Shown here: positions 4,245 through 55,833 of the stretch, one piece after another
Numbering within the stretch: position 1 is the first letter of the stretch
How the letters are laid out: the number at the start of each line of letters is the position of its first letter
Assembly (NCBI GenBank): GCA_948144175.1
Contig: CANXME010002134.1
Coordinates: 248,001 to 312,000, forward strand
From: Closterium sp. NIES-65
Lineage: Eukaryota > Streptophyta > Zygnematophyceae > Desmidiales > Closteriaceae
Direction of reading: 5' to 3'
DNA: 64,000 bases
Translations under genes and position numbers: made by a program
The notes under the pieces: generated by a model
The model's database searches: none
The model's input: only the letters and a program-made list of their open reading frames with translations
What the model was told of the DNA's origin: nothing

Positions 4245-4277
4245 TGGTATCACCTAGGTTAGGATCCTGTTGGATCC
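4245..4277 (+). promoter_or_regulatory. Primer binding site and adjacent stem-loop of element I
   Basis: TGGTATCA directly follows the LTR, as in initiator-Met tRNA primer sites. It is followed by GGATCC-TGTT-GGATCC (4262-4277), a six-base stem with a four-base loop. The same arrangement with different stem sequences occurs in elements A, B, E, G and H. Confidence 0.65.
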
Positions 4278-4698
4278 CGTTCCTCCCTCTTGAGCTTCTC
4301 TCTCGTGCCCGTTGCGGCGAGCATACCACGCCCGTAGCGCTCGTCCCGTCCCCTAGCACCCGTTGCGCCCGTCCCGTCCCATCCCCTCGCGTCCATAGCG
4401 CCCGTCCCGCCCCCTCGCGTCCATAGCGCCCGTTACCTCCTGTCCCTCACGCCCGTCGCACCTCCCTGCCCGTCGCGTCGTGCCCTGCCTGTCCCCTCAC
4501 GTCGCGCCCGTCCCGTCCAGTCCGCTTGCGCCCGTCTCGCCTCCTTGCCCTCCGCGTCACGCCTTGCCCATCCTGTTGCGTCGCGCCCTGCCCATCCCGT
4601 CCCCTCGCGCCCGTCGCACCTCCCTGTCCATTGCGTCGCGCCCTGCTCGTCATATTACATCGCGTCTGTCATGTCTCGTCCCCTTGCGCCCAACACGC
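4278..4698 (+). repeat. GC-rich leader repeats of element I (left part)
   Basis: Imperfect short repeats built from CCCGTC, GTCGCG and GCGCCC words fill the untranslated leader. They resume at 10361 after element A. Open frames here are compositional by-products (Arg/Pro/Ser/Ala only) and I do not call them genes. Confidence 0.7.
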
Positions 4699-4830
4699 TG
4701 TTGAAATGAATGAACAGGAATGATTGAACTAACAGTGAAATCAGTACAAGTACCTAACCCTATAATTGTGTACCCCCTATAGGCTAACCCACTGTAGCCT
4801 AAACAAGCACAACATATATAATGTTTGACA
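4699..4830 (-). repeat. 3' LTR of element A
   Basis: A 132-bp LTR with TG...CA ends. It equals 10229-10360 except for one T/G difference. A TATATAT stretch near its minus-strand start could serve as the TATA element. Confidence 0.95.
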
Positions 4831-5042
4831 CACCCCCATAGGCGAAGTGGGGGAGAACTAGGGGTCACAAGACCAGTCAAGTAAAGCAAAGCAAAGCAAG
4901 CTCAGGGTGGATCACAAAGTCACCACACATTCCGAGCACAAGTTCAAGGCCACAAGGCCAGTTCATATGCATGAGTAAATATACATATAAGGCTAGACAA
5001 GCAAGAGCAGGTATATATATATATGTAACAGTACAAGCAAGG
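4831..5042 (-). promoter_or_regulatory. 3' untranslated region of element A with polypurine tract and conserved box
   Basis: 4831-4850 reads, on the minus strand, as a G-rich polypurine tract abutting the LTR. Further in, about 4898-4950, lies a box of about 50 bases (core GTGATCCACCCTGAGCTT on the minus strand). It recurs in B (28749-28800), G (46245-46298), H (54528-54580) and both ends of I. Confidence 0.65.
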
Positions 5043-8000
5043 TCAAGAGGTGAGCAAGTGAGGCAAGACAGGTACAAGACCCAGCTGGGTGCGGAAGCGC
5101 TGATGATCACAAGGCGCAAGTGCCTTGGTGAAGACATCAGCAGTGTTGGCCTCAGAGGCCACGTACGCAAGCCGCAACTGACCATGCTGCTGTAGCTCAC
5201 GAGCAAGGAAGTAGCGGAGAGCAATGTGTTTTGTTCTGTGCTCCAGTCTCTGCTCTCGACACAAGGCCAGCATGGCCTTGTTGTCTACGTACAGGACTGG
5301 AGGAGAACGAGGCGGCTCTCCAGGGTCGGTCAGCAGGTAGGTGAGCCAGCAAAGCTCCTGAACAGCCATGGCCCCTGCGTAGATCTCAGCCTCACAACTG
5401 GAGCCGAGAACAGAAGACGAGCAAGTAGCCCGCCACGAAACAAAGCCGGAACCAAGGCTGAAGGTGTAACCCTGTGACGACCGCTGCGTAGCCTGATCGT
5501 CAGCCCAAGAAGCGTCTGCGTGACCAGTGAGGACCACTGGACTCTGCCCTCCAAGCACTAGCCCCATGCCCGACGTATTGCACAATTAGCGCAACACCAT
5601 GTGCTCTGGTTGGTGTCTCCCAAGAGCAACATAGTGCGCGAGAATGCTAAGAGGGTATGCAAGGTCAGGTCCTGTGCAGGTCATCAGGTACATGAGGCAG
5701 CCAACAAGCTCATGGTACGGGCCACTCGACTCAACGGACTCATCCGAAGGCAGAGCTGAGAGCGAGTGGCGAGTAGGCAGAGGAGTGGCCTGAGGCGAGG
5801 AGTACGTGAAGCCGAAGCGCTGAAGGACCTGCTGCACCATGTGTGACTGAGTCAGGGTGATGGTGCGGCGTGCTCTGTCCCGGGTGATCTGCAAGCCAAG
5901 GTAGCTACGCAGTTCACCCAGGTCTGTGCACGTGTGTCTCTTCTGCAGCTCGGACTTCACGTAGGCGATTCCAGCAGTGTCAGCTGTGGCAAAGACCAAG
6001 TCGTCGACGTACACAAGGATGTAGAACGACGTCAAAGAAGTGTCGGTGCGTAGAAACAGCGACGGGTCGACAGTAGAGGGAGCAAACCCAAGAGCCGCAA
6101 GCGTAGTCCTCAGTGTGTCGTGCCACTCACGCGGTGCCTGGCGGAGACCGTAGACTGGCCGCCGGAGACTCCACTGGGTGCCAGGAGGAAAAGACCCAGT
6201 GAAACCAGGTGGGCGACGCAGCCAGATCTCCTCGTGTAGGCTGCCCTGCAAGAAAGCAGTGCTGAAGTCAAGAGAGTGTAGCTCGTAGTCACGGTGAGCA
6301 GCTATGTGCAGCAGTACCCGAAGAGTGGTCATCTTCAGGGTGGGAGAGAAGGTCTGAAAGTAGTCAACTCCCTGCCGCTGACTGAAGCCACGAGCCACGT
6401 AACGCGCCTTGAAGACAGGCGGAGAACCCGGCGGCCGCTTCACCCTGAAAATCCACATGCCACTGACGATGTTCGCCCCAGGAGTGGGGACAGCGTCAAC
6501 GTAGGTGCCTGTGGACTTCAAGGAAGCCATCTCTGCATCCATAGCTGCCTGCCACTGAGAAGAGTAGGGACCCTCTATCGCCTCCGCGTAAGAGCGCGGA
6601 GTCGGGATGTCAAGTGCATCCGGGTCTCCCTCAGGGGTAAGCAGTACGGACACGAGATGAGGTGAAGCAGCGGCCAAGCACTGGAACTCCTCCTGCCTGT
6701 CCTCAAGGACGTACGTGCCAAGGGCACACTCACCCCCGACGGACGGAAGACAGACAGACTCAGACTCAGCGACAAGACTAGCAGCGTAGTCTAGACGACA
6801 CCGAGCAGCAAAGTCGACGAGCTCAGCAACTAGGGTAGACGCAGCAGTGGACTCAAAAGAAGGGTCAATGACGACAGTAGCAAGGAGACGCGTGACAGTA
6901 GGACTGGTAGCACGAGGAGAGTCCGACTCCGGGTCGGGAAGAGCAGGAAGAGAGGACTCAGGAGGAGAAGGCAAAGGGGCACGCAGAGGAGCAGTGGACG
7001 GACGCAGAGACATCCGGTGCGTGCCAGGGACAGGAGGAGGACGCTGACGCGAACCGCAACCTCTAGTGCGCGCAGTACGGACAGGTGACGCAGGGCGAGA
7101 TGCTGGCTCACGACGCTCAGCAAGACCTCTAGTAGGACCAGTGTAGGGAGAAGGAGCAGGCAGTGGGGAGGCGGGCTGTGCGAATCCAAGGGATCAAGAC
7201 ATCCGGGACCTCACCCTTGGTGCGCAAGGGGAAGACCGTGGTGTAGCGCGAGTAGTCGTCAACAACTATCAGGAAGTACCTCTCCTGACCCCGACCACGG
7301 ACGCGGGCTGGGCCCCACACGTCCATGTGGAGCGTTTGCAAGGGAGCAGTTGTCGGAGGAAACGAGGAGGAGTGAGGAGCGGCGCGCTGCCGCCCCTCGA
7401 CACAGGGAAGACAGGGAGGAGCAGGCAAGGGTGGGAGGGGAGGGAGGACTCTGGGAAGACCGGAGACAAGGTACCGGGAGTGCATGGCACGAAGGCGCTG
7501 CACAGACGGGTGGCCAAGTCGGTGGTGCCAGAGGACAGTCTCGTGCGCTAGAGAGCGACACGAGCAGGGGGCAGACAGCTGACCTGACGCGGACGCAGAC
7601 GCAGACGCAGCGACCTGAGGGGACTCAATGGTCAGTGTGTACAGGTCGGACCCCGGCTGCCGAGTGAAGGTAGCCAAGTGGCGGCCTGTACGAGCACACG
7701 TGCAGTGTGTCACGCGCTCGTAGGCAGGGGTGAACTGGTGAACACCCCCGTCCTGGAGTGCACTACCTGCCACCAAGTTCGTAGAGAACGAGGGGAGGTG
7801 GAGACCTGACAGTGTGCCCGACGGGACCGCAGGACAGGGAAGGACAGTGGAGGAGGTCGCAATGACCGGACCTCCAGAGGGGTCAGTGAGGGAGACAACA
7901 TCTGGCCGAGCAAGCGGCTCAAGGGCAGTGCGATCACGAAAGAAGCAGCGAGAAGCACCTGAGTCCAGTGTGAATGTGTGCAGTGCTGTCGTCGACTCAG

Positions 8001-9473
8001 TACCAGGGGGGGCAGACGCACAAGCACCTAGAGCAACTGCCTCACCAGCACCTGGGGTAGCAGACACGCGAGTACCTGGAGCGGCTGACGCATTAGTCCT
8101 AATGCCCGGGTCGGGCGGCACACACAGGAACTCAGCACCCTCTCCACTAGTAGACATCACATACATAGCAGTGAGAATAGCATCAAAGTCTAGAGCATAG
8201 ATATCAATCCCCTTCTTCAAGAGATCAACCCAGCGGGGCAGCTCACTGGCCTGAGGGAACTGAACACGCCAAGCGTCGTTGAGACGAGCGAAGCAGCGCT
8301 GTGTGGCGTGCGGTCCCCCATACAGCTGACCAGTGCGGTCACCAGTGCGAATGACGTACGTGCAGCTAAAGCCACCCCCCCCCCCCCCCCCCCCCCGTGC
8401 TGAGAGTACCACTCACGGACCTCCTGGGGCGACGGAGTGTGCTGCTGGCTCTGGCCACCGCCAGCGCCTCCACGACCACCACCACCGCCGCCACCTCCTC
8501 GACCACCCCAACCCCTACCGGCGCCGCGTCCACCGCCAACCCCACCACCGCCTCCGCCCCTGCCACCTCCCCCGCCGCTGCCGCCACCACCCCCACCGCT
8601 GCCACTAGCCCCTCCAGACGCGCCACCACCCCCACCGCCGCCACCGCCCCCACCACCGCCTCCCCCGCTGTCACCGCCACTGCCCTTGCCCCCTTTGCCC
8701 TTGCCACTCCGGCGCCCGCTCGAAGCAGACGCAGTACCGACCTTCTCAGCACCAAGGAGGTCGACAGCAGCAGCAGAGGCGACAGAGGGAAGAAGGGGGG
8801 AAGGAGAACACCCCTCAAAGAACGGGGTACGGGGGTCGCCACGAGAGGCACCTACAGCGACTATGCTAGCCTCAGCTACAAGGAGTTCCTTCTCGAGGAG
8901 GGCGATGGTGAGCTCAGTGGGGCAGCGAGCTAGGAAGTGGTCCCTGACTGAGCGCAGAGTGTCAGGGAGGCGGGTGACTAGGTGGTAGAGAGTGAGCCAG
9001 AGTGGGGGTGGGTTCTTGGCAAGGAACTCATCAGGCATGGCGGCGCGGAAGCGAGCCTCACTAGTGCGGAGGTGCGTAATGAGGTCAGCGACTGTGTGGA
9101 AAGAGGCTAAGTCGGGGAACAGGTAGGGAAGAGAGAGACGGCCTAGTGCAGCAGAGGCCGGTGAGGAGTAGCGGGCAACGACAGCAGTGTACAGTGCCTG
9201 TGCAGTCTTGTGCTGCCCAAAGTGCTCGCGCTCATCTATCGGCAGGGAGTTGCGAATAGCGAAGCGAGCGTGGGCGTCACGAGTCTGCCACTGTGAGCGG
9301 GCAGTGCTGTCAGCAGTAGCAGCAGGAGCAAGAGCATGGCCTAGGGCGTGATCGTACAGTGAGATGTCCTCCTTGGCAGTGGGCTGTAGGAAGAGGTGTA
9401 GATCATCTAGCCAGGTTTCGAACTTCACTGGGCGGCCCTCAGCATCGAAAGCCAGTACAGGAGGGCTAGCCAT
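5043..9473 (-). pseudogene. Gag-Pol of copia element A (frameshifted, integrase deleted)
   Basis: Minus strand. Gag starts at 9473 (MASPPVLAF) with a UBN2-type capsid region, then a Gly-rich linker around the 22-base C run at 8375-8396, where the frame breaks. In the next frame come an unusual CCHC-like knuckle in which the second Cys is Tyr, a protease with LDSGAS near 7950, a GAG-pre-integrase HHRLGHPS...CVEGR (about 7530-7390) and the integrase start HMDVWGP. The second half of integrase and the linker are deleted near 7180. Reverse transcriptase (YVDD near 6010) and the connection region occupy 7013-5586. A stop follows (a TAC Tyr codon read as TAA near 5586, by comparison with copies B and G), then RNase H down to 5043. 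It lacks the second and third integrase catalytic acids, so it is not autonomous. Confidence 0.9.
8375..8396. repeat. 22-base C homopolymer in gag of element A
   Basis: An unbroken run of 22 C (G on the coding strand) within a Gly-rich gag linker. The reading frame changes across it, so it is a likely slippage site. Confidence 0.9.
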
Positions 9474-10200
9474 AGCAGTAGTAGGAGTAATAGCAGTAGG
9501 GGCACCCCAAAAACAGTAGGCAGTGCGACTCAGGTAGGGCGGCTCGGTCCAGTACGGGCGGCGTGGCTCGGTTCAGGTAGGGCGGCGCGGCTCGGGAAGG
9601 GCGGCGCGGCTAGGTTCGGGCAGCGCGGCTCGGTTTGGGCTGGGCGGCTCGGTTTGGGCGGCTCGGTTCGGGCGGCTCGGTTCGGGCTGGGCGGCTTGGT
9701 TCGGGCGGCTCGGTTCGGGCAGGGTGGCTCGGTTCGGGCTGCTCGGGTCGGGCGGCTCGTTCTTGGGGGGGGGGCGTTCGGGGCCTCTAGGGGCGAGCGC
9801 GGGGCCGTAAGGGGCCGCTAAGGGCGAGCGCGGGGCCGATCGGGGCCTCTAGAGGCGAGCCCGGGGCCGTAAGGGGCCGCTAGGGGCGAGCGCGGGGCCG
9901 TAAGGGGCCGCTAAGAGCGAGCGCGGGGCCGTTCGGGGCCTCTAGGGGCGAGCGCGGGGCCGTAAGGGGCCGCTAAGGGCGAGCGCGGGGCCGATTGGGG
10001 CCTCTAGGGGCGAGCGCGGGGCTGTAAGGGGGCGCTAAGGGCGAGCGCGTGGGCCGACGGGGCCTTAAGGGGCGGCGCGCGAGTCGCTAAGGGGCGGGTC
10101 GCGGGTCGCGGGGCCTTAGAGGGCCGTGAAAACCGAGGCGCCCTAGGGCGCAGGTAGGTAGGTAGGTAGGTAGGTAGGTAGTGGTGGGCCCTAAAAAATC
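9474..10200 (-). repeat. GC-rich leader of element A with tandem repeats
   Basis: Untranslated leader between primer site and gag. 9530-9760 holds repeats of CGGCTCGGTTCGGGC type. 9775-10060 holds about five imperfect ~60-base repeats built from GGGGCCTCTAGGGGCGAGCG and GGGGCCGTAAGGGGCCGCTA. 10152-10181 is a (GGTA)n microsatellite. No coding sequence is supported. Confidence 0.8.
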
Positions 10201-10228
10201 GGTCCTAGGAAGGACCTGCTCTATACCA
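10201..10228 (-). promoter_or_regulatory. Primer binding site and stem-loop of element A
   Basis: On the minus strand TGGTATAGAGC directly follows the 5' LTR. It is followed by a perfect hairpin: GGTCCT (10201-10206), a four-base loop, AGGACC (10211-10216). Confidence 0.75.
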
Positions 10229-10360
10229 TGTTGAAATGAATGAACAGGAATGATTGAACTAACAGTGAAATCAGTACAAGTACCTAACCCTAGAATTGTG
10301 TACCCCCTATAGGCTAACCCACTGTAGCCTAAACAAGCACAACATATATAATGTTTGACA
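10229..10360 (-). repeat. 5' LTR of element A
   Basis: 132-bp partner of the LTR at 4699-4830, followed by the second copy of the target duplication CACGC. Confidence 0.95.
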
Positions 10361-10673
10361 CACGCCTCTCTGCCCATCGCGTTGCGCCCTGCCCTTCCCG
10401 TCGTGTCGCGCCTGTCCCGTCCCCTCCCCTCACGCCTGTCGTGCCTCCCTGCCCGTCGCGTCGCACCCTGCCCGTCTCGTCGCGTCGCGCCCGTCCCATC
10501 CCGTCCCCTCGCTCCCCTTGTGCCTGCCTGCCCGTGGCGTCGCACCCTGCCCATCCTATCGTGTTGCGCCTTGCCCGTCCTGTCGTGTCACGCCTTGCCC
10601 GTCCCCATCAGCTAGGGTCTCCTCAGCCAAACTAAGACGTGGCAGTAGTAGCTCCCTCCCCTCCGCATTAGCT
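10361..10673 (+). repeat. GC-rich leader repeats of element I (right part)
   Basis: Continuation of the 4278-4698 leader beyond element A, with the same CCCGTC/GTCGCG word composition. It ends just before the gag start codon at 10674. Confidence 0.7.
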
Positions 10674-17652: not shown

Positions 17653-17796
17653 TGTCAGAAACAAGAAGTGAGAAACAGCAATGAGCAAAGGAGGGTTTGC
17701 ACTAGCAGCAGTTGGCATACATATAGGAAACCCTAATTGGGTTGTACTCGCTGTAGAGTACCCCACTGTAGGCTAGACAATAATAACATTCTGACA
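17653..17796 (-). repeat. 3' LTR of element E
   Basis: 144-bp LTR, partner of 18930-19073, next to the polypurine tract. Confidence 0.9.
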
Positions 17797-18410
17797 CACC
17801 CCCATAGCCAAAGTGGGGTGTAATCAGCACAATGAGCAGGCATAGCAATAGTTCACAATTATAAGCAAAGCTAGAGGCGATCACAGAGGGCAAGTGAGGA
17901 GGAGGAGGAATTGTGAGGGGAGAGAAGATGGGAGACGACGGCTGAAGCTGCGGTCACACGGGCAACAGGAGCGCGCACACAGTGGCTACTGAGCTCACGA
18001 AGGCACCGGACTACAGGAGTAACAGGCTCGGCGGCTACGAGGAGCGGCAAGAGCAACGGACCCACGGGCGACAGGCACAGCAGGCTCTCTGGGCTACCGA
18101 GAGCACGACGGCTCCGGACTACTGGCGCTGCAGGCGACACGACGGCAGCCTCCACGCAACCTCCCCTGACCGTCCCACGCCCCTCTCACACACCCCCTGC
18201 AAAAACCCTAACTCCACTCCCACGTCACCCCCCTGGCTCCACTCCCCTCGGCTCCCACACCTCCACCCCCCTGAGCAGCAGCTGTAGCAGTGGGAGACGA
18301 ACAAGGAGGGGAGAGGGAAGGGGAGCACCCACACCGCACACCCCCATGCTCGCCACCCCACACCCCCTACCACCGTGGAACGCACGGCGGCACGGGAGGA
18401 ACGGGCAGCA

Positions 18411-18411
<1 letters not shown>

Positions 18412-18444
<33 letters not shown>
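18412..18444. repeat. 33-base G homopolymer in element E
   Basis: Unbroken G run in the internal region, at the place corresponding to the G run of element H near 55157-55184. Confidence 0.9.
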
Positions 18445-18446
<2 letters not shown>

Positions 18447-18896
18447 GGGACAGAAGGGGGGCCGCGCGCTCCTTCTCAGGGGTCGCCGAAACGGACGGGC
18501 GAGGGGGCGCGCGCGGTTCCCCAGGGCGCCGTGACGGACGAGCACGGGGCGCGCGCGGCTCCCCAGGCCGCCGCAACGGACGGGCGGAGGCCGCGCGCGA
18601 CTCCTTAGGGCGCCGCGACGGACGGGCGGGGGGCGCACGCAGCTCCCCAGGGCGCCGCGACGGACGGAAGGGGGGGCGCGTGCGGCCTGCAGGGCGACGC
18701 GACGAGACGGGCGGGGGCTGTGCGCGGGTCCCCACAGCAGAAAACCGCCGCGCGCCCCGAGCGCACGGCGGGATGAAGAAACCCTAAAAATTTTCGCCCC
18801 GAGCGCACGGCGGCAGGAAGAAGATGTCGCGCGCCCGAGGCGCGCGAGAAGTAGAACAGCAGCGGAAGCAGTTAGGTGGCGGGCCCACCCACAGGA

Positions 18897-18929
18897 TCGA
18901 CCCAAGGGGGTCGACCTGCTCTGATAGCA
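18897..18929 (-). promoter_or_regulatory. Primer binding site and stem-loop of element E
   Basis: Minus strand TGCTATCAGAGC follows the 5' LTR. A seven-base stem (18897-18903 with 18908-18914) and a four-base loop follow. Confidence 0.7.
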
Positions 18930-19073
18930 TGTCAAAAACAAGAAGTGAGAAACAACAATGAGCAAAGGAGGGTTTGCACTAGCAGCGGTTGGCATACATA
19001 TAGGAAACCCTAATTGGGTTGTACTCGTTATAGAGTACCCCACTGCAGGCTAGAGAATAATAACATTCTGACA
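18930..19073 (-). repeat. 5' LTR of element E
   Basis: 144-bp LTR, partner of 17653-17796. Confidence 0.9.
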
Positions 19074-19235: not shown

Positions 19236-19237
19236 AT

Positions 19238-28562: not shown

Positions 28563-28687
28563 TGTGAAGAAATGAGGAATGAAATGACTAAGGAGAATGT
28601 GGGTACAAGTAGGAAACCTAGAAATGTTGTACCCTATAGTGTCTACCCCACTACAGCCTAGATAGACCATAGCATATAAGTTTGAGA
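28563..28687 (-). repeat. 3' LTR of element B
   Basis: 125-bp LTR. Its last base pair is altered (GA instead of CA) relative to the partner. Confidence 0.9.
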
Positions 28688-28826
28688 CACCCCCATAGGC
28701 GAAGTAGGGGAGAACAAGTGGTCACAAGACCAGTCAAGCAAAGCAAAGCAAGCTAAGGGTGGATCACAACGTCACCACACATTCCGAGCACAAGATCAAG
28801 GCCACAAGGCCAGTTCACATGCAAGA

Positions 28827-31800: not shown

Positions 31801-32430
31801 GGGACTTGGCGCAAGGAAGAGTAGTGGGGGGGGGGGAGGGGTGCAGTGCGGTAGGGGAAGAGACGGTAGTAAGGATCCGACTCATCAAACGTTACATCCT
31901 AGGAGGACAGAACACGGCGCGAGGTGGAGTGGTAAAACTGCCAACCAGGCGCGTCAAGGGGGAAGCCAAGAAAGACGCAGGGAACCGCACGGGGGGACAG
32001 CTTGTCCGCAGACAAGTCGCAGACAAACGCCTGAGATCCCCAGACACGAAACGCAGACGCATCGCCAACCTTCCCCGTCCACCGTAAGGTGGGGGAGATC
32101 TCCGGTAAGGAGATCCGGGGCTGAAGGTTGATCTGATGCGCCGCGTACCGAACCGCAAACGGCCACAGAAAATGGGGAGCAGCCGCATGGATCATGGACG
32201 TACGAGCGACGTCCATGACCATGCCAATGCGGCGCTCAGCAATCCCATTTTGCTGTGGAGAGGCCGGAAGCGTGAAGGTCTGGCGGATGCCGTGTGCACG
32301 ACAGAAGGCTCCCAGAAGGCCATAGGAAAACTCCTCGCCTCTGTCAGAGTGAAGCCGCAGAACAGGAAAGTCGGAGCCGAAACTCTCTCTGGGCCGGAGA
32401 CGAGCCGCGCGGATCCAGTCGGGCTGTGGA
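28827..32430 (-). pseudogene. Pol of copia element B (5' deleted, frameshifted)
   Basis: Minus strand. Integrase begins in mid-core (SDFPVLRLHS, near 32390), runs through SPQQNGIAER (Glu kept) and the GKVGDASAFRVWG region to about 31860. A Gly/Ala/Pro linker contains a 15-base minisatellite (31520-31700), which in its proper frame encodes GAEPG-type pentapeptides. The frame shifts around the linker. Reverse transcriptase with LVYVDDLVFA (near 29870) and RNase H with DASWADDQATQRSSQGY and DNKAMLAL follow down to about 28920. No gag or protease is present, so mobility would need helper proteins, or the deletion came after insertion. Confidence 0.9.
31520..31700 (-). repeat. 15-base coding minisatellite in the copia B linker
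   Basis: About 12 imperfect copies of a CCCAGGCTCAGCACC-like unit. The same unit array occurs in element G at about 49070-49290. Confidence 0.85.
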
Positions 32431-32439
32431 GGTGGGGCC

Positions 32440-32660
32440 GCAAGGGGCTGCTGAGGGCGGCGCGACGGGCCGCTCAGGGCGGCGCGACGGGCCGCTAGGG
32501 GGCGGCAACAGGGTCGCGAGGGGCCGTGAGAGGGTGGGGGGCCGCTAAGGGCAGCACGACGGGTTGCTAAGGGGAGGGCGGTACACAGGGCGCGCCTCGG
32601 TCAGGGGCGACTTGATCTCAGGGTAGGAAAAAAAATCGATTTTCAGTGGTGGGCCCTAGG
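32440..32660 (-). repeat. GC-rich leader of element B
   Basis: Imperfect repeats of GGCCGCTAAGGGCGGCGCGAC type between the deletion joint and the primer-site hairpin. No coding sequence is supported. Confidence 0.7.
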
Positions 32661-32664
32661 AAAA

Positions 32665-32693
32665 GTTCCCACTAGGGAACCTGCTCTATACCA
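32665..32693 (-). promoter_or_regulatory. Primer binding site and stem-loop of element B
   Basis: Minus-strand TGGTATAGAGCAG, then a perfect hairpin GTTCCC (32665-32670), four-base loop, GGGAAC (32675-32680). Confidence 0.75.
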
Positions 32694-32818
32694 TGTGAAG
32701 AAATGAGGAATGAAATGACTAAGGAGAATGTGGGTACGAGTAGGAAACCTAGAAATGTTGTATCCTATAGTGTCTACCCCACTATAGCCTAGATAGACCA
32801 TAGCATATAAGTTTGACA
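32694..32818 (-). repeat. 5' LTR of element B
   Basis: 125-bp LTR, partner of 28563-28687. Confidence 0.9.
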
Positions 32819-40937: not shown

Positions 40938-41027
40938 AGTATTGCAGACTTTGGGGTGTGATGAATAACTTTATAAAGGGGTTGTTCTGAGAAGAACGAG
41001 GACTTGACAGATCGTATAATCCACTCT

Positions 41028-46054: not shown

Positions 46055-46179
46055 TGAGAAAATGAACGAGAATGTTTTGACTAAGGGAAAGTTTGGTACA
46101 AGTACAAACCCTAGAAAGCTGTACCCCATATGTGCTACCCCACTATAGCCTACAGTAGCTATGTCATATAAATCTGACA
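46055..46179 (-). repeat. 3' LTR of element G
   Basis: 125-bp LTR, partner of 53289-53413. Confidence 0.95.
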
Positions 46180-46348
46180 CACCCCCATAGGCAAAGTGGG
46201 GAGAACAAGGGGTCACAAGACCAGTCAAGCAAAGCAAAGCAAGCTCAGGGTGGATCACAAACTCACCACACATTCCGAGCACAAGTTCAAGGCCAGTTCA
46301 CATGCAAGATTACATATATATATAAGGCTAGACAAGCAAGAGCAGGTG

Positions 46349-46372
46349 TATATATATATATATATATATATA
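46349..46372. repeat. (TA)n microsatellite
   Basis: About 12 TA units in the 3' untranslated region of element G. Elements A and B have shorter TA runs at the matching place. Confidence 0.85.
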
Positions 46373-46391
46373 TGCAACAGTACAAACAAGG

Positions 46392-48527
46392 TCAAGGGGT
46401 GAGCAAGTGAGGCAAGGTAGGCACAAGACCCAGCTGAGTACAGAAGCGCTGATGATCACAAGGCGCAAGTGCCTTGGTGAAGATATCAGCAGTGTTGGCC
46501 TCAGAGGCCACGTACGCAAGTCGCAGCTGACCACGCTGCTGTAGCTCACGAGCAAGGAAGTAGCGGAGAGCAATGTGCTTCGTTCTGTGCTCCAGTCTCT
46601 GTTCTCGACACAAGGCCAGCATGGCCTTGTTGTCTACGTACAGCACTAGAGGAGAACGAGGCGGCTCTCCGAGGTCAGTCAGCAGGTAGGTGAGCCAGCG
46701 AAGCTCCTGTGCAGCCATGGCCCCGGCGTAGATCTCAGCCTCAGAACTGGAGCCGAGAACAGAAGACGAGCGGGTAGCCCGCCACGAAACAGAGCCGCAA
46801 CCAAAGCTGAAGGTGTAACCCTGTGACGACCGCTGTGTAGCCTGGTCGTCAGCCCCAGAAGCGTCTGCGTGCCCAGTGAGGACCACTGGACTCTGCCCTC
46901 CAAGCACAAGCCCCATGCCCGACGTACTGCACAAGTAGCGCAACACCCTCTTCGCTGCAGCCATGTGCTCCGGTCGGTGTCTCCCAGGAGCAACATAGCG
47001 TGCAAGAATGCTAAGAGGGTATGCAAGGTCAGGTCGTGTGCATGTCATCAGGTACATGAGGCAGCCAACAAGCTCTGGGTACGGGCCACTCGACTCTACG
47101 CACTCATCCGAAGGCAGAGCTGAGAGCGAGTGGCGAGTAGGCAGAGGAGTGGCTTGAGGCGAGGAGTACGTGAAGCCGAAGCGCTGAAGGACCTGCTGCA
47201 CCATGTGTGACTGAGTCAGGGTAATGGTGCGGTGTGCTCTGTCCCGGGTGATCTGCAAGCCAAGGTAGTTGCGCAGTTCACCCAGGTCTGTGCACGTATA
47301 TCTCTTCTGCAGCTCGGACTTCACGTGGGCGAGTCCAGCAGTGTCAGCTGTGGCAAAGACCAAGTCGTCGACGTACACGAGGATGTAAAACGGCGGCAAA
47401 GAAGTGTCGGTGCGAAGAAACAACGACGGGTTGGTAGTAGAGGGAGCAAACCCAAGAGCCGTAAGTGTAGTCCTCAGTCTCTCGTGCCACTCACGCGGTG
47501 CCTGGCGGAGACCGTAGACTGGCCGCCGGAGGCTCCACTGGGTGCCAGGAGGAAAAGACACAGTGAAGCCAGGTGGGCGACGCAGCCAGATCTCCTCGTG
47601 CAGGCTGCCCTGCAAGAAAGCAGTGCTGAAGTCAAGAGAGTGCAGCTCGTAGTCGCGGTGAGCAGCTATGTGCAGCAGTACCCGAAGAGTGGTCATCTTC
47701 AGGGTGGGAGAGAAGGTCTGAAAGTAGTCAACTCCCTGCCGCTGACTGAAGCCACGAACCACATAACGCGCCTTGAAGACAGGCGGAGAACCCGGCGGCC
47801 GCTTCACCCTGAAAATCCACATGCCACTGACGATGTTCGCCCCGGGCGGGGGAACCTCCTCAACGTAGGTGCCTGTGGACTTCCAGGAAGCCATCTCTGT
47901 ATCCATAGCTGGCTGCCACTGAGAGGAGTAGGGACCCTCTATCGCCTCCGCGTAAGAGCGCGGAGTCAGGATGTCAAGTGCATCCGGGTCTCCCTCAAGG
48001 GTAAGCAGTACGGACACGAGATGAGGTGAAGCAGCAGCCAAACACTGGAACTCCTCCTGCCTGTCCTCAAGGACGTCCGTGCGAATGGAACACTCACCCC
48101 CGAAAGACGGAGGACAGACAGACTCAGACTCAGCGACAAGACTAGCAGCGTAGTCTAGACGACAGCGAGCAGCAAAGTCGGCGAGCTCAGCAACGAGGGC
48201 AGACGCAGTAGTGGACTCAAAGGAAGGGTCAGTGACGACAGTAGCAAGGAGACGCGTGACAGTAGGACTGGCAGCACGAAGAGAGTCCAACTCAGGGTCA
48301 GCAAGAGCAGGAAGAGAGGACTCAGGAGGAGAAGGCAAAGGGGCACGCAGAGGAGCAATGGACAAACGCAGAGACATCCGGTGCGTGCCAAGGACAGGAG
48401 GAGGACGCTGACGCGAACCACAACCACTAGTGCGAGCAGGACGGATAGGCGACGCAGGGCGAGACGCAGGCTCACGACGCTCAGCAAGACCTCTAGTAGG
48501 ACCAGTGTAGGGAGAAGGAGCAGGCAA
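46392..48527 (-). CDS. Reverse transcriptase-RNase H segment of copia G (711-codon open frame)
   Basis: Open minus-strand frame. It starts in the Pro-rich linker, passes SYAEAIEGPYSSQW, then reverse transcriptase with GMWIFRVKRPPGSPPVFKAR, FSTAFLQGSLHEEIW, RRPVYGLRQAPREW and LVYVDDLVFATAD (near 47360), then RNase H with LTGHADASGADDQATQ, SSSEAEIYAGAM, YVDNKAMLALCRE and LRYFLARELQQ, ending PHLLTP. Key catalytic residues of both enzymes look intact. It is only the C-terminal part of the polyprotein: integrase, linker and gag upstream are frameshifted, so it is unlikely to be expressed as an active Gag-Pol. Confidence 0.85.
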   Translation of the reverse strand: MPAPSPYTGPTRGLAERREPASRPASPIRPARTSGCGSRQRPPPVLGTHRMSLRLSIAPLRAPLPSPPESSLPALADPELDSLRAASPTVTRLLATVVTDPSFESTTASALVAELADFAARCRLDYAASLVAESESVCPPSFGGECSIRTDVLEDRQEEFQCLAAASPHLVSVLLTLEGDPDALDILTPRSYAEAIEGPYSSQWQPAMDTEMASWKSTGTYVEEVPPPGANIVSGMWIFRVKRPPGSPPVFKARYVVRGFSQRQGVDYFQTFSPTLKMTTLRVLLHIAAHRDYELHSLDFSTAFLQGSLHEEIWLRRPPGFTVSFPPGTQWSLRRPVYGLRQAPREWHERLRTTLTALGFAPSTTNPSLFLRTDTSLPPFYILVYVDDLVFATADTAGLAHVKSELQKRYTCTDLGELRNYLGLQITRDRAHRTITLTQSHMVQQVLQRFGFTYSSPQATPLPTRHSLSALPSDECVESSGPYPELVGCLMYLMTCTRPDLAYPLSILARYVAPGRHRPEHMAAAKRVLRYLCSTSGMGLVLGGQSPVVLTGHADASGADDQATQRSSQGYTFSFGCGSVSWRATRSSSVLGSSSEAEIYAGAMAAQELRWLTYLLTDLGEPPRSPLVLYVDNKAMLALCREQRLEHRTKHIALRYFLARELQQRGQLRLAYVASEANTADIFTKALAPCDHQRFCTQLGLVPTLPHLLTP

Positions 48528-48559
48528 TGGGGAGGCCGGCTGTAACGGTAACTATGACG

Positions 48560-51020
48560 TGACAGGCTGTGGACACTCTAAGGGAGGAGGAGGACCAGTA
48601 GAAGGCGGGAGACCAAGAACCTGCTGAAGGAGCGGAACGAAGTACGGTCGAGGCCGCGCGGCGACTCCAGACACAGCAGGGACAGCACCAATACCCCCAG
48701 CGGCAGCACGAGCGCCAGCAGCACCTCCAGCTCCAGTACCTCCAGCAGCACCAGTAGCACCCCCAGCAAGACCGCCTCCAGGACCAACAGCAGTAGCCTC
48801 AGCGCCAACACCCTCAGCAGCTCCAACTCCAGTCGTACCCGCAGGCCCAGCAGCTCCAGTACTCCCAGTACGAGCACCTCCGGGACCCGCGGTAGCAGCA
48901 CCCTCAGTAGCCTAAGAACCTCCAGCTCCAGCAGCACGCCTCCAGCGCCGGGCAAACCACTCTCGCAGCTCTTGCGGAGAGAGTGGCTCCCGCCGAGACG
49001 AAGGACCCGGAGAACCTTTAGGCCTAGCACCGCCAGACGCCACACGAGCAGGCCCAGCTCCCTCGGGCTCTGCACCCCCAGGCTCAGCACCTCCATGCGT
49101 AGCACCCCCAGGCTCAGCACCCCCAGGCGTAGCACCCCCAGGCTCAGCACCCCCAGGCTCATCACCCCCAGTGGTAGCACCCCCAGGCTCAGCACCCCCA
49201 GGCTCAGCACCCCCAGTAGTAGCACCTCAAGCTCAGCACCCCCAGAGTCAGCACCCCCAGGCTCAGCACCCTCAGCAGCACTAGAGTCACCAATAACCTC
49301 GACAGGCTCAACTGCGTCTACCTGGGACACACCTGAAGGGGCAGGACCCTGAGGGGGGAGGGGGTCTACCGGGGGGGGACCTGGCACAAAGAAGAGCGGT
49401 GGCGGGGGGAGGGACGAAGTGCGGTAGGGGAAGAGGCGGTAGTAGGGGACCGACTCGTCAAACGTGACGTCCTGGGAGGACAGAACACGGCGCGAGGTGG
49501 GGTGGTAGAACTGCCACCCTGGCGCGTCAGGGGGGAAGCCAAGGAAGACGCAAGGAGCAGTACGAGGGGACAGCTTGTCCGCATACAAGTCGCGGACAAA
49601 CGCCTGAGATCCCGAGACATGGAACGCAGACGCATCGCCAACCTTCCCCGTCCACAGCAAAGCTGGGGAGGTCTCCGGCATGGAGACCCTTGGGTGAAGG
49701 TTGATCTGATGCGCCACGTACCGAACCGCTAACGACAACAGAAAATGGGGGGCAGCCGCATGCATCATGGACGTACGGGCGACGTCCATGACCATGCCAA
49801 TGCGGCGCTAAGCAATCCCATTTTGCTGTGGAGAGTCCGGAAGCGTGAAGGTCTGGCGGATGCCTCGTGCACGACAGTAGGCTCGCAGAAGGCCAGAGGA
49901 GAACTCTCCGCCTCTGTTAGAGTGCAGACGCAGAACAGGAAAGTCCGAGCCGAAGCTATGCCTGAGCTGGAGACGAGCTGCGCGGATCCAGTCGATCAGC
50001 ACCTCAGTGACATCACCCTTGCTGCGCAAAGGGAAGACTGTAGTGTAACGCGAGTAGTCGTCAACCACCAGCAGGAAGTAGCGCTCGTGACCCTGTCCAC
50101 GGACGCGGGCCGGGCCCCACACGTCCATGTGAAGCGTCTGCAGCGGGGCCTCTGTCGGAGGAAACTAGGAGGAGGGAGGGGCAGCCCGCTACCGCCCCTC
50201 GACACAGGGGACGTAGGTAGGGCTAGGCTCCGGACGAAGGGGAGGGAGGGACCGGGGAAGACCAGAGACAAGGACACGGGAGGCCATGCCTCGGAGACGA
50301 AGCAGGGAGGGGTGACCAAGGCGGTGGTGCCAGAGGAGGGTCTCGTGAGACAGGAGGCGACACGAGCAGGGGGCACACTCAGGACCAAACCTGGACGCTG
50401 CAGCAAACACCTGACCCGACGCAGCTACCTGACCAGACGCAGTGACTGGAGGAGACGCAGTGCTCAGTGTGTACAGGCTCAACCCCGGCCGACGTGTAAA
50501 CGTGGCCAGGTGTCGGCCTGTCCGAGCGTCCGTGCAGTGGGTCACCCGCTGACTCGCAGGAGTGAAGTGGTGAACCCCCGCATCCTGTAGGTCAGCGCCA
50601 CTCACCAAGTTCGTAGAGAACGAGGGGAGGTAAAGGCCATACAGGGTGCCAGAGGGGGCCGCCGGACACGGGAGGACAGTGGAGAAGTGAGCAAGGACAG
50701 GACCCCCAGAGGGGTCCGCCAGAGAGACTGCAACTAGCCGGCCAAGCGGCGTGAGTGTGGTGCGGTCTCGAAAGAAGGAGCGAGAAGCCCCCGAGTCAAG
50801 GGTGAAGGTGTGGGAGGCCGAAGCCGGCGCAGTACCTAAGAGAGCAGACTCACCAGCACCTGAGGGAGCAGACGCACGAGCACCTAGAGCAGTAGCCTCG
50901 CTAGCACCTAGAGCAGCAGCCTCACCAGTACCTAGAGCAGCAGTCTCAAGGCCCGGGTCGGGCGGAAAACACCGGTAACAGTCACCCTCATCACTAATAG
51001 TCACAGCATACATGGCAGCA
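48560..51020 (-). pseudogene. Protease and integrase of copia G
   Basis: Minus strand. The protease (TLDSGASRSFF, near 50790) and GAG-pre-integrase (WHHRLGHPSLLRL, CVEGR) are open from 51013 to 50189. Integrase core 50128-49400 has MDVWGP, DDYSRYTTVF, RLHSNRGGEF and SPQQNGIA. There the codon of the third catalytic acid (GAG in relatives) is TAG at about 49808. TGKVGDASAFHV and YADKLSPRT continue to about 49440. The linker at 49070-49290 is the 15-base minisatellite, around which the frame is lost. Confidence 0.9.
49070..49290 (-). repeat. 15-base coding minisatellite in the copia G linker
   Basis: About 14 imperfect CCCAGGCTCAGCACC-like units, the same array type as in element B at 31520-31700. 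Confidence 0.85.
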
Positions 51021-52583
51021 AGAATAGCATTTAAGTCAAGGTCAAAGACAGCTACTCCCGCCCTAGACAGCTCGCCCCAGCGGGGGATCTCAGTGGCCTC
51101 CGGGAACTGGTGACGCCAAGCGTCCGTCAGGCGGCCAAAGCAGCGCTGGGTGGAGTGCGCACCCCCGCACTGCTCACCCGCGCGGTCGCCGGTGCGTAGG
51201 ACGTAGGTGCACGGACCAGTACCCCCACCCCGCTGGCGTGCAGCGTGCCACTCACGGAGCTGTTGAGGGGGGGGGATGTCACGAGTGCGCTGCTGCTACT
51301 GCTGCTGCTGACGCTGACCACCACCGGAGCCGACCCTCTGCGCAGCGCCACCCCGACCAGCTCCACCGCCTCCGCCACCGCCTCCTCCACCGCCGCCACC
51401 TCCGCCACCTCCGCTCCCACCGCCACCGCCGCCGCCGCCTCCGCCTCCACTGCCGCCACCGACACCTCCACCCCCGCCACCACCCCCACCGCCACCCCCA
51501 CCCCCTCCGCCGCCTCCACCGCCGCCTCCACCGCCCCCGCTAGCTCTTCCAGCGCCCCTGTCCCCCTTGCCCTTGCCAGGGCGGCGTCTCCCGCTAGGGG
51601 TAGACGCCGCACCGACCGACTCAAGACCAACGAGGTCGGCCGCAGCAGCAGAGGCAACAGAGGGCAAAAGGGGGGAGGGGGAACAACCCTCAAAGATGGG
51701 GGTGCGAAGCAGGGCTGACGATTCAAGGGCAAATGCCCTTAATGCCCTGAACATTAAGGGTTGGGTTCGGCCCAGCTTCTGAAGTTTAAGGGTTGGGTTT
51801 GAGGGCAGCCCGTCCCCGCAAAGTGCTGGTTGTGGGCCTAACTCGGATTTCAAGTGCCGATCCCCCGGCTAGCCCTTATCGTCCCACACTAATACCTCCC
51901 TCCCTCCCATTCCCTCACCAGTCCCCCCGCCTCTCCCAGCTACTCCACTACTTCCTTTTCCCATCCCCGTCAAATCCATCGACATGGTTCGTACCTCAAC
52001 CTATTGCCTAGCTGGCTCTTAGTAGTTTGCCTAGGATAACGGACCCGAATAGATGTAGGTTTTTCTTAGCGAAAGTGCAAAAAACTTGGTAGCCCCGATT
52101 TCAAGTGCCAGGTTTGCTCTCAGCCCGTAAATTTCAGGGCAACTTTTGGGGCACCTCAGCCTCTCAAGATCTAGCTCCAAACCAATCGACAGCCCTGGGG
52201 CAAAGGTCACCACGAGAGGCTCCTACAGCTACTATGCTCTTCTCTGCTGCTAGGAGGGCCTTCTCGAGGAGGTCAACGGTGAGAGTGGTGGGGCAAACTG
52301 AGAGGAAGTGGTCCCTGACTACTTGAAGGGGGTCAGGGAGCCGGGTGACTATGTAGTAGAGGGTGATGTACATGGGGGGGGGGATCTTGGCGCAGAACTC
52401 AGTAGGAAGCGCAGCGCGGTAGCGAGTGTCACTAGTGCGGAGGTGCGTAATGAGGTCAGCGACTGTGGGAAAGTCAGCAAGGTCAGGGAAGAGGTACGGT
52501 AGCATGAGGCGGCTCAGTGCAGCAGTAACTGCGGCTCGGCGGCTCGGCGGTACGGCGGCTCGGCAGCAACTGCGGCTCGGCAA
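51021..52583 (-). pseudogene. Gag of copia G, split by a MITE
   Basis: Minus strand. The capsid-like UBN2 part (LSRLMLPYLFPDL, FPTVADLITHLRTSD, YIVTRLPDPLQVVRDHFL) lies at 52530-52206. The MITE follows, then TPIFEGCSPSPLLPSVAS, a long Gly-rich linker (51340-51560), a Gln run and an unusual knuckle with spacing C-X13-C-X3-H-X4-C (51130-51215). Removing the MITE and one target copy restores the gag frame at the join. The N-terminus seen in element A is replaced or scrambled into the GC-rich leader here. Confidence 0.85.
51710..52197. mobile_element. hAT-like MITE (488 bp) in gag of element G
   Basis: Ends CAGGGCTGACGATT and, inverted, CAGGGCTGTCGATT: a terminal inverted repeat of 14 bases with one mismatch. 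The flanks GTGCGAAG (51702-51709) and GGGCAAAG (52198-52205) form an 8-bp duplication with two mismatches. 8-bp duplications and CAGGG-type ends fit hAT elements. There is no coding capacity. The same gag position in element A is uninterrupted. Confidence 0.8.
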
Positions 52584-53250
52584 CTCGGCGGCTCGGGCGA
52601 CTCGGGCGGCTTGGCGGTACGGCGGCTCGGAGACCCGGCGGCTCGGGCGGCTCAGGTGGCGAGGCGGCTCAGGCGGCTCGGGTGGATCGGGCGGCTCGGC
52701 AGGAGCTCGGCAGCGCCGGCGGCTCGGTGGTGACGGCGGAGCCGCGTGGGGACGGCGGCGGGGCCGGGTGGAGCGGCGGCGGGGCCGGGTGGAGCGGCGT
52801 CGGGGCCGGGTGGAGCGGCGGCGGGGCCGGGTGGAGCGGCGTCGGGGCCGGGTGGAGCGGCGTCGGGGCCGGTCGGAGCGGCGTCGGGGCCAGTAGAGGC
52901 GGCGCCAGGGCCGGGAAGGGCAGCTCCGGGGCCGCAGGGGTAGGCGACGGGGCCAGTAGAGGCGGCGCCGAGGCAGGGGTAGGCGACGGGGCCGCTAGGG
53001 CGGCTAGGAGGGGGGGGTTCGCGACGGCGGCTTGAAGAGGCCGCGAGGGCGGCACGAAGGGGCCGCGAGGGCGGCGCGACGCGGCCGCTAGGGGCCGCGA
53101 GGCCGACGCGACGGGGCCGCAAGCGCGACGCGACGGGGCCGCTAAGGCGGCTCGACAGGGTCGAAAGGGCGGCGCGATGGGGCCGTGAGAGGGGAGCGCG
53201 ACTCGGGCAGTGTAGAGCGCGGTCCGGGCAGGAAAAAAATGTGGTGGGCC
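52520..53250 (-). repeat. GC-rich leader of element G with 24-base repeats
   Basis: 52520-52720: CGGCTCGG-type repeats. 52765-52890: about six tandem 24-base units of GGTGGAGCGGCGTCGGGGCCG type. 52930-53215: GGCGGCACGAAGGGGCCGCGA types. All six frames are largely open because of base composition, and I do not call genes here. Confidence 0.8.
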
Positions 53251-53259
53251 CTAGGAACA

Positions 53260-53288
53260 GTTCCCACAAGGGAACCTGCTCGATACCA
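53260..53288 (-). promoter_or_regulatory. Primer binding site and stem-loop of element G
   Basis: Minus-strand TGGTATCGAGCAG, then the hairpin GTTCCC (53260-53265), four-base loop, GGGAAC (53270-53275). Confidence 0.75.
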
Positions 53289-53413
53289 TGAGAAAATGAA
53301 CGAGAATGTTTTGACTAAGGGAAAGTTTGGTACAAGTACAAACCCTAAAAAGCTGCACCCCATATGTTCTACCCCACTATAGCCTACAGTAGCTATGTCA
53401 TATAAATCTGACA
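53289..53413 (-). repeat. 5' LTR of element G
   Basis: 125-bp LTR, partner of 46055-46179. Confidence 0.95.
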
Positions 53414-54076
53414 GTAACCTCGGTAAGTCCTTATGTTTTGCTGTTGAGTCGGGGTGATGTTCCTCAGTAGGATCGTGTACGCCATCATTGACTAATAGGT
53501 GTACTGCTGCTTCTCGTACTGTGTGCCGTTTGTTGAGTATGGCAGAGACCCGTCGAAGAACCCAAGTATCTGCGCACCTTCCATCATCAGCTCGAACTCG
53601 AACGACCAGGTGAAGAAGTCCTTTCCATGAAAGGGTCTTGACGTCTGCATCTTCAGAACATGTGCAAACTGCGTCTGAACTTGTAATGCGTCCAGTGATT
53701 TTTCTTGTCCATGTGAGGGCTGTGGCATAAAGCTGATGGACCCGCGCTCGTACGGAGCAAAGGTAGGCTGCTGTTGCTGATTTCCTCGTGCATATGATGA
53801 GCCGTCGAGACTCATGGGTGTTGCTCCGTTGTTGTTGCTGTTGTGTGACTGCGCAGGTGCCGATTGCTGGTGTTGCTCGTAGAAGGACATGAAGGAGAAG
53901 AATTTCTCCATCATGCTCTGGTCGAAGTCTGCAGGTTGATTTGCGGGAGTCTCGGTACATGTTGCTCTGGGTCTTGTTGCCGTGCCCTCCTCTGTCTGTA
54001 GGCCAGAGGCAGGAGGTGGAGTAGGAGTAGTGCCCTAGGAGCCGTTGGAGTTGCTCCTTTCCTTTTGTGTAGCCAT
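53414..54076 (-). pseudogene. Gag of copia D, N-terminal part
   Basis: Minus strand from ATG 54076. A TAG follows near 54038, then a Gln/Asn-rich segment (SYARGNQQQQPTFAPYERG) and the capsid start (FHGKDFFTWSFEFELMMEG). Another stop lies near 53491, and the frame is cut by element G at 53414 and resumes at 46054. Confidence 0.8.
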
Positions 54077-54119
54077 GCTGATTGATGTTGTCGGTATAGT
54101 AGTTGAATTCCCCCTGATT

Positions 54120-54131
54120 GCTCTCATACCA
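54120..54131 (-). promoter_or_regulatory. Primer binding site of element D
   Basis: Minus-strand TGGTATGAGAGC directly after the 5' LTR, one base different from the usual initiator-Met site. Confidence 0.8.
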
Positions 54132-54347
54132 TGTTGGGCTTAAAAGGGCCCTTAGGATCTTTGCAGGGGTGAACTCTGGGTAAAGTTGATGTAGTAGCGG
54201 AAGCGTTAATAAAGAGTTGTGAACCACCTTGCGCTAGTCTGTGAGGGCAAAGTAAGTTGATTAAAACAAAGAGATACAAGATTATATAAGAGTACAAGGA
54301 ATATGAAAGGATACGGTTATAATTGTTTTACTTGTTGCTGTTGCGGT
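54132..54347 (-). repeat. 5' LTR of element D, first part
   Basis: Matches 41490-41705 and is interrupted by element H at 54348. The rest is 55834-56067. Confidence 0.9.
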
Positions 54348-55833
54348 TGACAAAATTAGAAGAAAGAAAGAGAGGGTTGAACTAGCAGGAATGAGGATAC
54401 AAATAGCAAAACCCTAGAAGGGTTGTACTCGCTATAGAGCACCCCACTACAGGCTAGAGCATAAGATAATATTCTGACACACCCCCATAGCCAAAGTGGG
54501 GTGTAATCAGCAGAGCAGGCAAAGCAGTACAAGCTCAGGGTGGATCACAATGTCACCACACAATCTGAGCACAAGTTCAAGAAGAAATAGTTTAGAGTTC
54601 ACATTTATGAGCAAAGCTAGTGGTAGTCACAATGGGCAAGTGAGGAGGAGGAGAGAGAGTGAGGGGAGAGGAGATAGGAGGCGACGGCTGAAGCTGCAGA
54701 CACACGGGCAACAGGAGGCAGACTGGCACAGCGGCTACCGGACAGCGCCCGGACTACAGGAGTAACAGGCCCCGCGGCTCAAGTAGCGGCAGACGGGCAA
54801 CGGACCCACGGGCGGCTGGCGTAGAAGTCTAGCTCACTGGGCTACCGGGACAGCGCCCCGGACTACAGGTGCTGCGGACAACAGTACGGCAACCTCCATG
54901 CAGCTTCCCCAAACAGTCCTACTCCCCGACACACACCCTCTGCTACACCGCTAGCTCCACTCCCACGCACTCCCCTTAAACCCTAAACCCCAGTCTCCCA
55001 CACAACCACCCCCCTCAGCGACAGCTGCAGCAGTGGGAGACGAAGGAGGAGGAGGAGCAAAGGGAGGAATGCACACCGACCACCCCCATACCTGCCACCC
55101 CACAGCTGCGGCCCCCGAAGGAGCCGCGACGGGCGACGGGAAATGGGGGGGGGAGGAGGGGGGGGGGGGGGGGGGGGGGGGGGGCGAAGTGGGGCGGCGG
55201 GGCCGCGACGGGTCGGTGGCGGGGCCGCGACCGGAGTTGGCGGGGCCGCGACCGGAGGCGGCTGGGCCGCGACGTGAGGCAGCAGGGCCGCGACCGGAGG
55301 TGGCGGGGCCGCGACGAGTCGGTGGCGGGGCCGCGACGGGTCGGTGGCGGGGCCGCGACCGAAGGTGACGGGGCCGCGACGAGTCGGTGGCGGGGCCGCG
55401 AGAGTGGGGCGGCGGGGCCGCGACGGGTCCCCATCGCCCGTCGCGACGCGTCCAAAGCGGGACGCGGCGAACGCCGGGGCAGAAGCCCGCCGCGCGCCTC
55501 GGGGCGCACAGCGGGCAGAGAACTGCCGCTCGCCTCGGGGCGCACGGTGGGCAGAAAACCGCCGCGCGCCTCGGGGCGCACGGCGGGCAAAAAACCGCCG
55601 CGCGCCTCGGGGCGCACGGCGGGAGGAAAAAGTAGCAGCGGAAGCGAGGTGGTAACCCACCCACAGGATCGATCCAAGGGGATCGACCTGCTCTGATAGC
55701 ATGACAAAATTAGAAGAAAGAAAGAGAGGGTTGAACTAGCAGGAATGAGGATACAAATAGCAAAACCCTAGAAGGGTTGTACTCGCTATAGAGCACCCCA
55801 CTACAGGCTAGAGCATAAGATAATATTCTGACA
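54348..55833 (-). mobile_element. Non-autonomous short-LTR element H, very recent
   Basis: Two identical 132-bp LTRs (54348-54479 and 55702-55833) and an exact target duplication GCGGT (54343-54347 and 55834-55838). The internal region (1.22 kb) has no recognisable protein. It keeps a primer site (minus-strand TGCTATCAGAGC), a hairpin (55669-55686), a polypurine tract next to 54479, the 3' box at 54528-54580, and GC-rich repeats around a long G run (55157-55184). Overall like element E. The absence of coding sequence together with identical LTRs implies recent movement by proteins supplied from elsewhere. Confidence 0.95.
55669..55701 (-). promoter_or_regulatory. Primer binding site and stem-loop of element H
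   Basis: Stem TCGATCC (55669-55675), loop, GGATCGA (55680-55686), directly before minus-strand TGCTATCAGAGC. Compared with element E, one stem pair has changed on both sides (C-G to T-A). Confidence 0.75.

Follow-up and report, generated by a model that had tools for sequence, protein, structure and literature searches.

Within a 64,000-nucleotide stretch of the Closterium sp. NIES-65 genome (contig CANXME010002134.1, positions 248,001 to 312,000 of the forward strand; hereafter the window), six retroelements, five of them with short LTRs, carry a perfect hairpin just beyond the primer binding site (PBS), with stems that differ in sequence. This raises the question of what the structure does and why it recurs in changing sequence. 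The initial annotation, made from the letters of the window, had proposed a functional RNA element, for example for dimerisation, packaging or primer placement. The positions, stems and four-base loops it gave for all six hairpins (elements A, B, E, G, H and I) were reproduced, the compensated fifth stem pair that distinguishes E from H (C-G versus T-A) is genuine, and the second motif, AGGGCCCACCAC, was found past the hairpin in A, B and G. The elements and their leader features are as follows, with complementarity referring to the initiator tRNA-Met (tRNA-iMet) of the host:

Element A, 4699-10366, LTR pair of 138 bp, 98.6% identical
10201..10216, minus strand, hairpin GGTCCT-TCCT-AGGACC, 3' arm aligning to the T-stem/variable-region complement of tRNA-iMet
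10181..10192, minus strand, AGGGCCCACCAC, complement of tRNA-iMet nt 24-34 at 11 of 12 bases
10217..10228, minus strand, acceptor-complementary part of the PBS, the LTR pair ending at 10229
Element B, 28563-32816, LTR pair of 123 bp, 97.6% identical
32665..32680, minus strand, hairpin GTTCCC-TAGT-GGGAAC, PBS at 32681-32693
32646..32657, minus strand, AGGGCCCACCAC, anticodon-stem complement
Element G, 46055-53413, LTR pair of 125 bp, 97.6% identical
53260..53275, minus strand, hairpin GTTCCC-TTGT-GGGAAC, PBS at 53276-53288
53241..53252, minus strand, AGGGCCCACCAC, anticodon-stem complement
Element E, 17653-19073, LTR pair of 144 bp, 95.1% identical
18897..18914, minus strand, hairpin TCGACCC-CCTT-GGGTCGA, PBS at 18915-18929
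18876..18896, minus strand, TCCTGTGGGT and GGGCCCGCCAC, complements of the T-stem/variable region and the anticodon arm
18859..18869, minus strand, GCTTCCGCTGC, exact D-arm complement of tRNA-iMet
Element H, 54348-55833, LTR pair of 132 bp, 100% identical
55669..55686, minus strand, hairpin TCGATCC-CCTT-GGATCGA, PBS at 55687-55701
55648..55668, minus strand, TCCTGTGGGTGGGTTACCACC, partial complement of the T-stem/variable region and the anticodon arm
55635..55645, minus strand, GCTTCCGCTGC, exact D-arm complement
Element I, LTRs of about 310 bp with 89% identity, enclosing the nested element A
4245..4277, plus strand, divergent PBS (4245-4260) and hairpin GGATCC-TGTT-GGATCC (4262-4277)

When the leaders were shuffled, 0.45-3.75% of the trials, depending on the leader, contained a perfect hairpin of at least 6 bp in this zone; the same zone test found one in 13 of 22 real leaders. 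Since the LTR pairs of A, B, E, G and H stop at the PBS, priming is placed at its acceptor-complementary part. A copia-type reverse transcriptase (Pfam RVT_2) is encoded in A, B and G. E and H are short (1.4-1.5 kb each); the one long ORF of E that was run against Pfam gave no match, and a weak Pfam match to a phage tail protein, below the cut-off, was dismissed. As an observation in its own right, the 1.5 kb element H (54348-55833) has identical LTRs (100%), which together with its short length suggests that it is a recent insertion, probably mobilised by the proteins of another element.

Read on the opposite strand, the leaders of E and H resemble initiator tRNA-Met. A pattern search of the genome located host tRNA-iMet genes at 26 places; all 12 that were fetched were assigned to tRNA-Met with anticodon CAT by ARAGORN, and they fall into two main forms one T-stem pair apart. 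Behind the PBS the leaders of A, B, E, G and H are collinear with the reverse complement of this tRNA. Strict local alignment to the tRNA complement beyond the 18-base PBS gave scores of 47 for H, 40 for E, 25 for A, 25 for G and 22 for B, reached by 0, 0, 0, 3 and 4 of 500 shuffles, respectively. The corresponding counts for other PBS-like sites were 246 (x1), 13 (x2), 497 (x3), 72 (x4) and 242 (x5) of 500, x2 and x4 being elements with LTR pairs of their own. In a gap-tolerant test no more than 5 of 1000 shuffles did as well as A, B, E, G, H or the further leaders f2 (L011:188), f4 (L025:4923) and f5 (L027:9446); weaker leaders followed with 13 (f9), 25 (f1), 51 (f8), 60 (f3) and 70 (f7), and the controls with 133 (x2), 506 (x4) and 354 (x5) of 1000. 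The predicted energy of the duplex with the tRNA lay under that of all 60 shuffles in 11 of 17 leaders (A, B, E, G, H, f2, f4, f5, f7, f8, f9), and shuffles did as well in 6 (I), 2 (f1), 3 (f3), 35 (x2), 56 (x4) and 22 (x5) of 60 cases in the remainder.

The complementary segments can be assigned to individual arms. AGGGCCCACCAC, whose presence in A, B and G had been annotated while its identity was missed, complements tRNA-iMet nt 24-34 in the anticodon stem and has one further A that is unmatched; GGGCCCACC complements nt 26-34, the 5' strand of that stem. Beyond what had been annotated, E carries GGGCCCGCCAC, which is related to AGGGCCCACCAC, and H an altered form; GCTTCCGCTGC, present in both, matches the D-arm complement at 11 of 11 bases. 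A D-arm complement was found in other leaders as well and a T-stem part in some, with the anticodon stem as an additional arm. Behind the PBS, A, B, E, G and H carry additional segments that complement further arms of their primer tRNA; in I no such segment was significant. An Rfam scan of the window gave nothing at gathering score and only weak matches elsewhere, and ARAGORN detected no tRNA gene in the window. These results apply to one genome, in which leaders were drawn from the matches listed, not at random, and related copies are not independent.

We determined how widely the segments occur in the 874-Mb genome. AGGGCCCACCAC is present in 13,544 copies, versus 50 for the reversed word; 37 of 40 places fetched lie behind a PBS and 3 belong to another repeat, as judged by eye. 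The latter (L037, L050 and L051) have AGGGCCCACCAC with no PBS ahead. TATCAGAG followed by the D-arm complement at 26-56 bases occurs at 5,611 places, and the whole pattern reversed at none; decoys combining the PBS start with the D-arm word either reversed or in sense orientation also gave 0. A PBS with GGGCCCRCC at 8-38 bases was found at 2,772 places (control 0), a PBS with ATGGGCCCACC at 670 places including the tRNA genes (control 0) and ACATGGTATCAGAGC at 7,145 places; these sets, including that of TATCAGAG with the D-arm word, are not nested, so that no fractions can be formed among them. An intact complement of the anticodon loop beside an exact PBS occurs at 24 places. Of these, 22 are known tRNA-iMet genes and two are one-base T-loop variants that look like tRNA genes; the pattern search of the genome thus revealed no element that keeps the anticodon-loop complement beside an exact PBS.

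The hairpin lies between the complements of the acceptor and of the anticodon stem, that is in the place of the T arm, and the alignments of A and f4 set the 3' arm of the hairpin against the T-stem/variable-region complement. For a wider view 379 leaders were collected, among the matches listed, by tRNA motifs and not by the hairpin. On a common 28-base zone they represent 218 distinct zones (a count of 270 "distinct" ones stems partly from unequal cut lengths). A perfect stem of at least 5 bp is present in 130 of the 218 zones (shuffled 7.0%) and one of at least 6 bp in 88 (shuffled 1.2%). Eighteen stem strings occur, about ten once nested and overlapping ones are merged, including GTTCCC, GGTCCT, TCGATCC, TCGACCC, GGCGGCA, GTAGGAA and GTTCCAA. 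In 125 of 130 hairpin leaders the distance from GAG to GGGCCC is 28-35 bases; in 36 of 72 leaders without a hairpin it is 23 bases.

When leaders were grouped by single-linkage clustering, which puts A, B and G together, 6 of 15 cluster representatives had a stem of at least 6 bp, with differing stems and a mean chance expectation of 1.5%. These hairpin clusters are the two largest and four others; the remaining nine representatives have no hairpin, and one such cluster comprises 46 leaders. The annotated claim that structure is kept while sequence changes holds between clusters, then, but not inside the GTTCCC group: among 42 distinct leaders the stem was perfect in 31, wobble-paired in 2 and broken in 9, and the compensated change that we sought in this group was absent (0 doubly compensated). 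Its stem changes resemble those that decaying copies would show. With the PBS as register, two compensated pairs distinguish A from the GTTCCC group, as read from the sequences. Among 61 copies of the E/H type 43 stems were perfect, 11 contained wobbles only and 7 were broken; the fifth pair was T-A in 44, C-G in 11, T-G in 6 and C-A in none, an association (Fisher 3e-8) that is inflated by the relatedness of the copies. Perfect stems in 8 of 9 leaders of the A group and 5 of 5 of the E/H group prove little, because the selecting patterns contain part of the stem. Many intact young copies without the hairpin had been named as counter-evidence, and one young copy of this kind was found: L011:188 has LTRs that are 99.5% identical, lacks the hairpin and keeps the tRNA complement. 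A blast search for LTR pairs around seven further leaders yielded a long pair in L107, shorter matching stretches (46-71 bases) in L101, L104 and L106, and no pair in L102, L103 and L105.

Element I differs from the other five. Its score in the strict alignment was 16, with 96 of 500 shuffles as good, and the gap-tolerant test beyond its PBS likewise gave no significant tRNA complement (299 of 1000 shuffles as good). With the T-stem part of the PBS included 127 of 5000 shuffles were as good, and beyond the PBS 1245 of 5000. The tRNA-complement tests do not support I as a carrier of the extended complement. Its family occupies 110 places in the genome, and about six in ten of 100 listed keep GGATCC-N4-GGATCC, counted by eye. 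The family is thus marked by a palindromic stem with varying loops behind a divergent PBS, and its tie to the tRNA is putative.

What emerges as the best reading is an extended grip on the tRNA similar to that of Ty1, which would reach to the anticodon stem and set a hairpin opposite the T arm. From the sequence comparisons we think it rather probable that in many copia elements the leader adjacent to the 5' LTR binds its primer, tRNA-iMet, as an extended module. The order of the segments behind the PBS follows the tRNA: T stem and variable region, the anticodon stem (GGGCCCACC) and then, in those families that have it, the D arm (11 nt). The genomic RNA would hold the tRNA by two or three helices, with the acceptor, the anticodon stem and the D arm, and at the junction the T arm of the tRNA and the hairpin of the element would both remain folded. 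Such a grip may secure primer choice, annealing and the start of the first strand, as the Ty1 boxes do. As to its origin, an old plus-strand read-through into the tRNA could have written the complement into an ancestor, parts of which were kept. Primer placement, one of the functions annotated for the hairpin, would thus be the most fitting, though the antisense relation to the tRNA had been overlooked.

We assessed the predicted complex by joint folding of ten leaders and one control, each with one unmodified form of the tRNA and no proteins. For B, E, L101 and L102 the predicted fold combines the acceptor helix, the hairpin of the element and the T arm of the tRNA, still folded, with a second helix formed at the anticodon stem; E and L101 add a helix with the D arm. 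A, G, H, f4, f2 and f5 are predicted to form one long interrupted duplex with no junction. B (-17.1 kcal/mol) and L102 (-15.5 kcal/mol) reach roughly the same predicted net gain as x2 (-16.3 kcal/mol), a control with a PBS only; for E, H, f2, f5 and L101 the gain is larger. We regard an extended grip as likely and the junction as possible. More specifically we put forward, tentatively, a primer complex of new shape: a four-way junction with the T arm of the tRNA folded and the element hairpin opposite. In it GGGCCCACC would open the anticodon stem, and some families would have the D arm opened as well, the hairpin being kept as a shape in at least six clusters and the anticodon loop being spared.

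The leader could instead be a relic, an ancestral tRNA-iMet complement copied by plus-strand read-through past A58 and decaying without function, with the hairpin as a by-product, since the complement of a T arm likewise folds into a hairpin. Several observations would suit such decay: families retain different parts of the complement, in f5 almost the whole of it remains (39 of 43 aligned bases), the anticodon-loop complement persists beside an exact PBS only at tRNA genes or their lookalikes, and stem changes in the GTTCCC group are uncompensated. It is harder to see why GGGCCCACC and the D-arm word should then be exact in thousands of copies from several families while the spacers differ, and why perfect stems of differing sequence should be far more frequent than by chance; we regard a mere relic as rather unlikely. 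That the hairpin is an independent RNA signal for dimerisation or packaging, unrelated to the adjoining tRNA complement, would agree with stems retained in differing sequence in 6 of 15 clusters. A kissing-loop dimer initiation hairpin, though, would be expected to have a self-complementary loop, and none of the 119 loops closed by a stem of at least 6 bp contained a palindromic 4-mer, which speaks against the annotated dimerisation through such a contact; moreover some families lack the hairpin, and its position coincides with that of the T-arm complement. An independent signal is accordingly improbable in our estimate.

Two readings concern GGGCCCACC itself. It resembles GGNCCCAC, which we take to be the consensus of plant TCP transcription factors, and might on that likeness be a promoter element; as this leaves the collinear D-arm and T-stem complements as well as the set distances from the PBS unexplained, we give it hardly any credence, the least of all readings. 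Scarcely more credible is the reading that GGGCCCACC serves as an additional site of priming, by half of a tRNA cleaved in the anticodon loop. Half-tRNA-Met priming does occur in the plant lineages Osser, Bryco and part of Gymco-II, according to passages of a plant-element survey (PMC6317226), but the LTRs of A, B, E, G and H stop at the acceptor PBS, tens of bases ahead of the box, and the complement of the anticodon loop is absent. The half-tRNA-Met sites described for Ty5, Drosophila copia, Osser and Bryco share with our leaders the use of the anticodon region of tRNA-iMet; there, in the descriptions available, the priming site lies at the LTR, whereas here the box stands 28-35 or 23 bases past GAG, behind the acceptor PBS where the LTR ends, and we did not assign it to this class.

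In the passages on Ty1 in PMC5454406 and PMC4974528, Box 0, Box 1 and Box 2.1 are complementary to the T or D hairpins of the primer tRNA and act in primer packaging and initiation. The leaders resemble Ty1 as so described in being copia-type, in using the same initiator tRNA and in having additional complements to tRNA arms behind the PBS. They differ in that the Ty1 boxes lie in gag and pair with the T and D hairpins, while in the present leaders the second contact falls most often on the anticodon stem, and a hairpin occupies the T-arm place. The primer over-extension sequence of lentiviruses and spumaviruses, located behind the PBS in the passages of PMC13191261, is likewise complementary to the tRNA past the 18-nt primer part. 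There it abuts the PBS and serves plus-strand transfer; here the complement continues the PBS almost directly in f2 and f5, but in A, B, E, G and H the hairpin intervenes and breaks the complement, which in the hairpin families resumes at the anticodon and D arms. The A-rich loop and primer activation signal of HIV-1, as treated in the same passages, also provide a second contact of template and tRNA off the PBS, with the anticodon or T arm, but with a different tRNA, on the opposite side of the PBS and with no antisense-tRNA leader. Helenus and TRIMp3, in the part of PMC10886601 concerned, have a tRNA-like sequence within the LTR; the sequence described here is antisense and internal to the LTR, and does not belong with them. 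The passages of PMC6317226 give PBS types including half-tRNA sites and name no extended module, and a search of open-licence literature found no description of one for plant copia elements. The match of the PBS to tRNA-iMet is often one or two bases short. The persistence of such imperfect sites fits the conclusion, in the passage of PMC5371799 concerned, that the Ty3 PBS is not perpetuated by copying of the tRNA, a point made for Ty1 by a title cited there.

This genome offers thousands of natural variants of the second contact, with and without a partner hairpin. To our knowledge second contacts between template and primer tRNA are known mainly from a few model elements (Ty1, Ty3, HIV-1). 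With these variants one can examine which arms of the tRNA the leaders grip, which contact gives way to a hairpin and why the anticodon loop is left out, and coding elements (A, B, G) can be compared with short ones (E, H) in holding the same tRNA.

Some further repeats were noticed during mapping. At L009:1589 (minus strand), L009:4100 (minus strand) and L026:386 (plus strand) a repeat of about 140 bp ends in a box A-like TGGTCTAGTGG, followed by the iMet PBS, and two of the three have a box B-like GGTTCGAATCC. By motif likeness a Pol III promoter spanning the LTR/PBS junction is possible; Rfam and ARAGORN gave no match for these elements. Just past the box, A-type elements contain a CTAC-repeat run of varying length (window about 10150-10182 in A; L029, L057, L058). 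Tandem arrays lie in or near elements at 9708-10126 (unit 31), 52711-53004 (unit 21) and 58366-58893 (mostly 9-15 bases), and near-identical copies of a 71-bp tandem repeat occupy 61125-62352 of the window.
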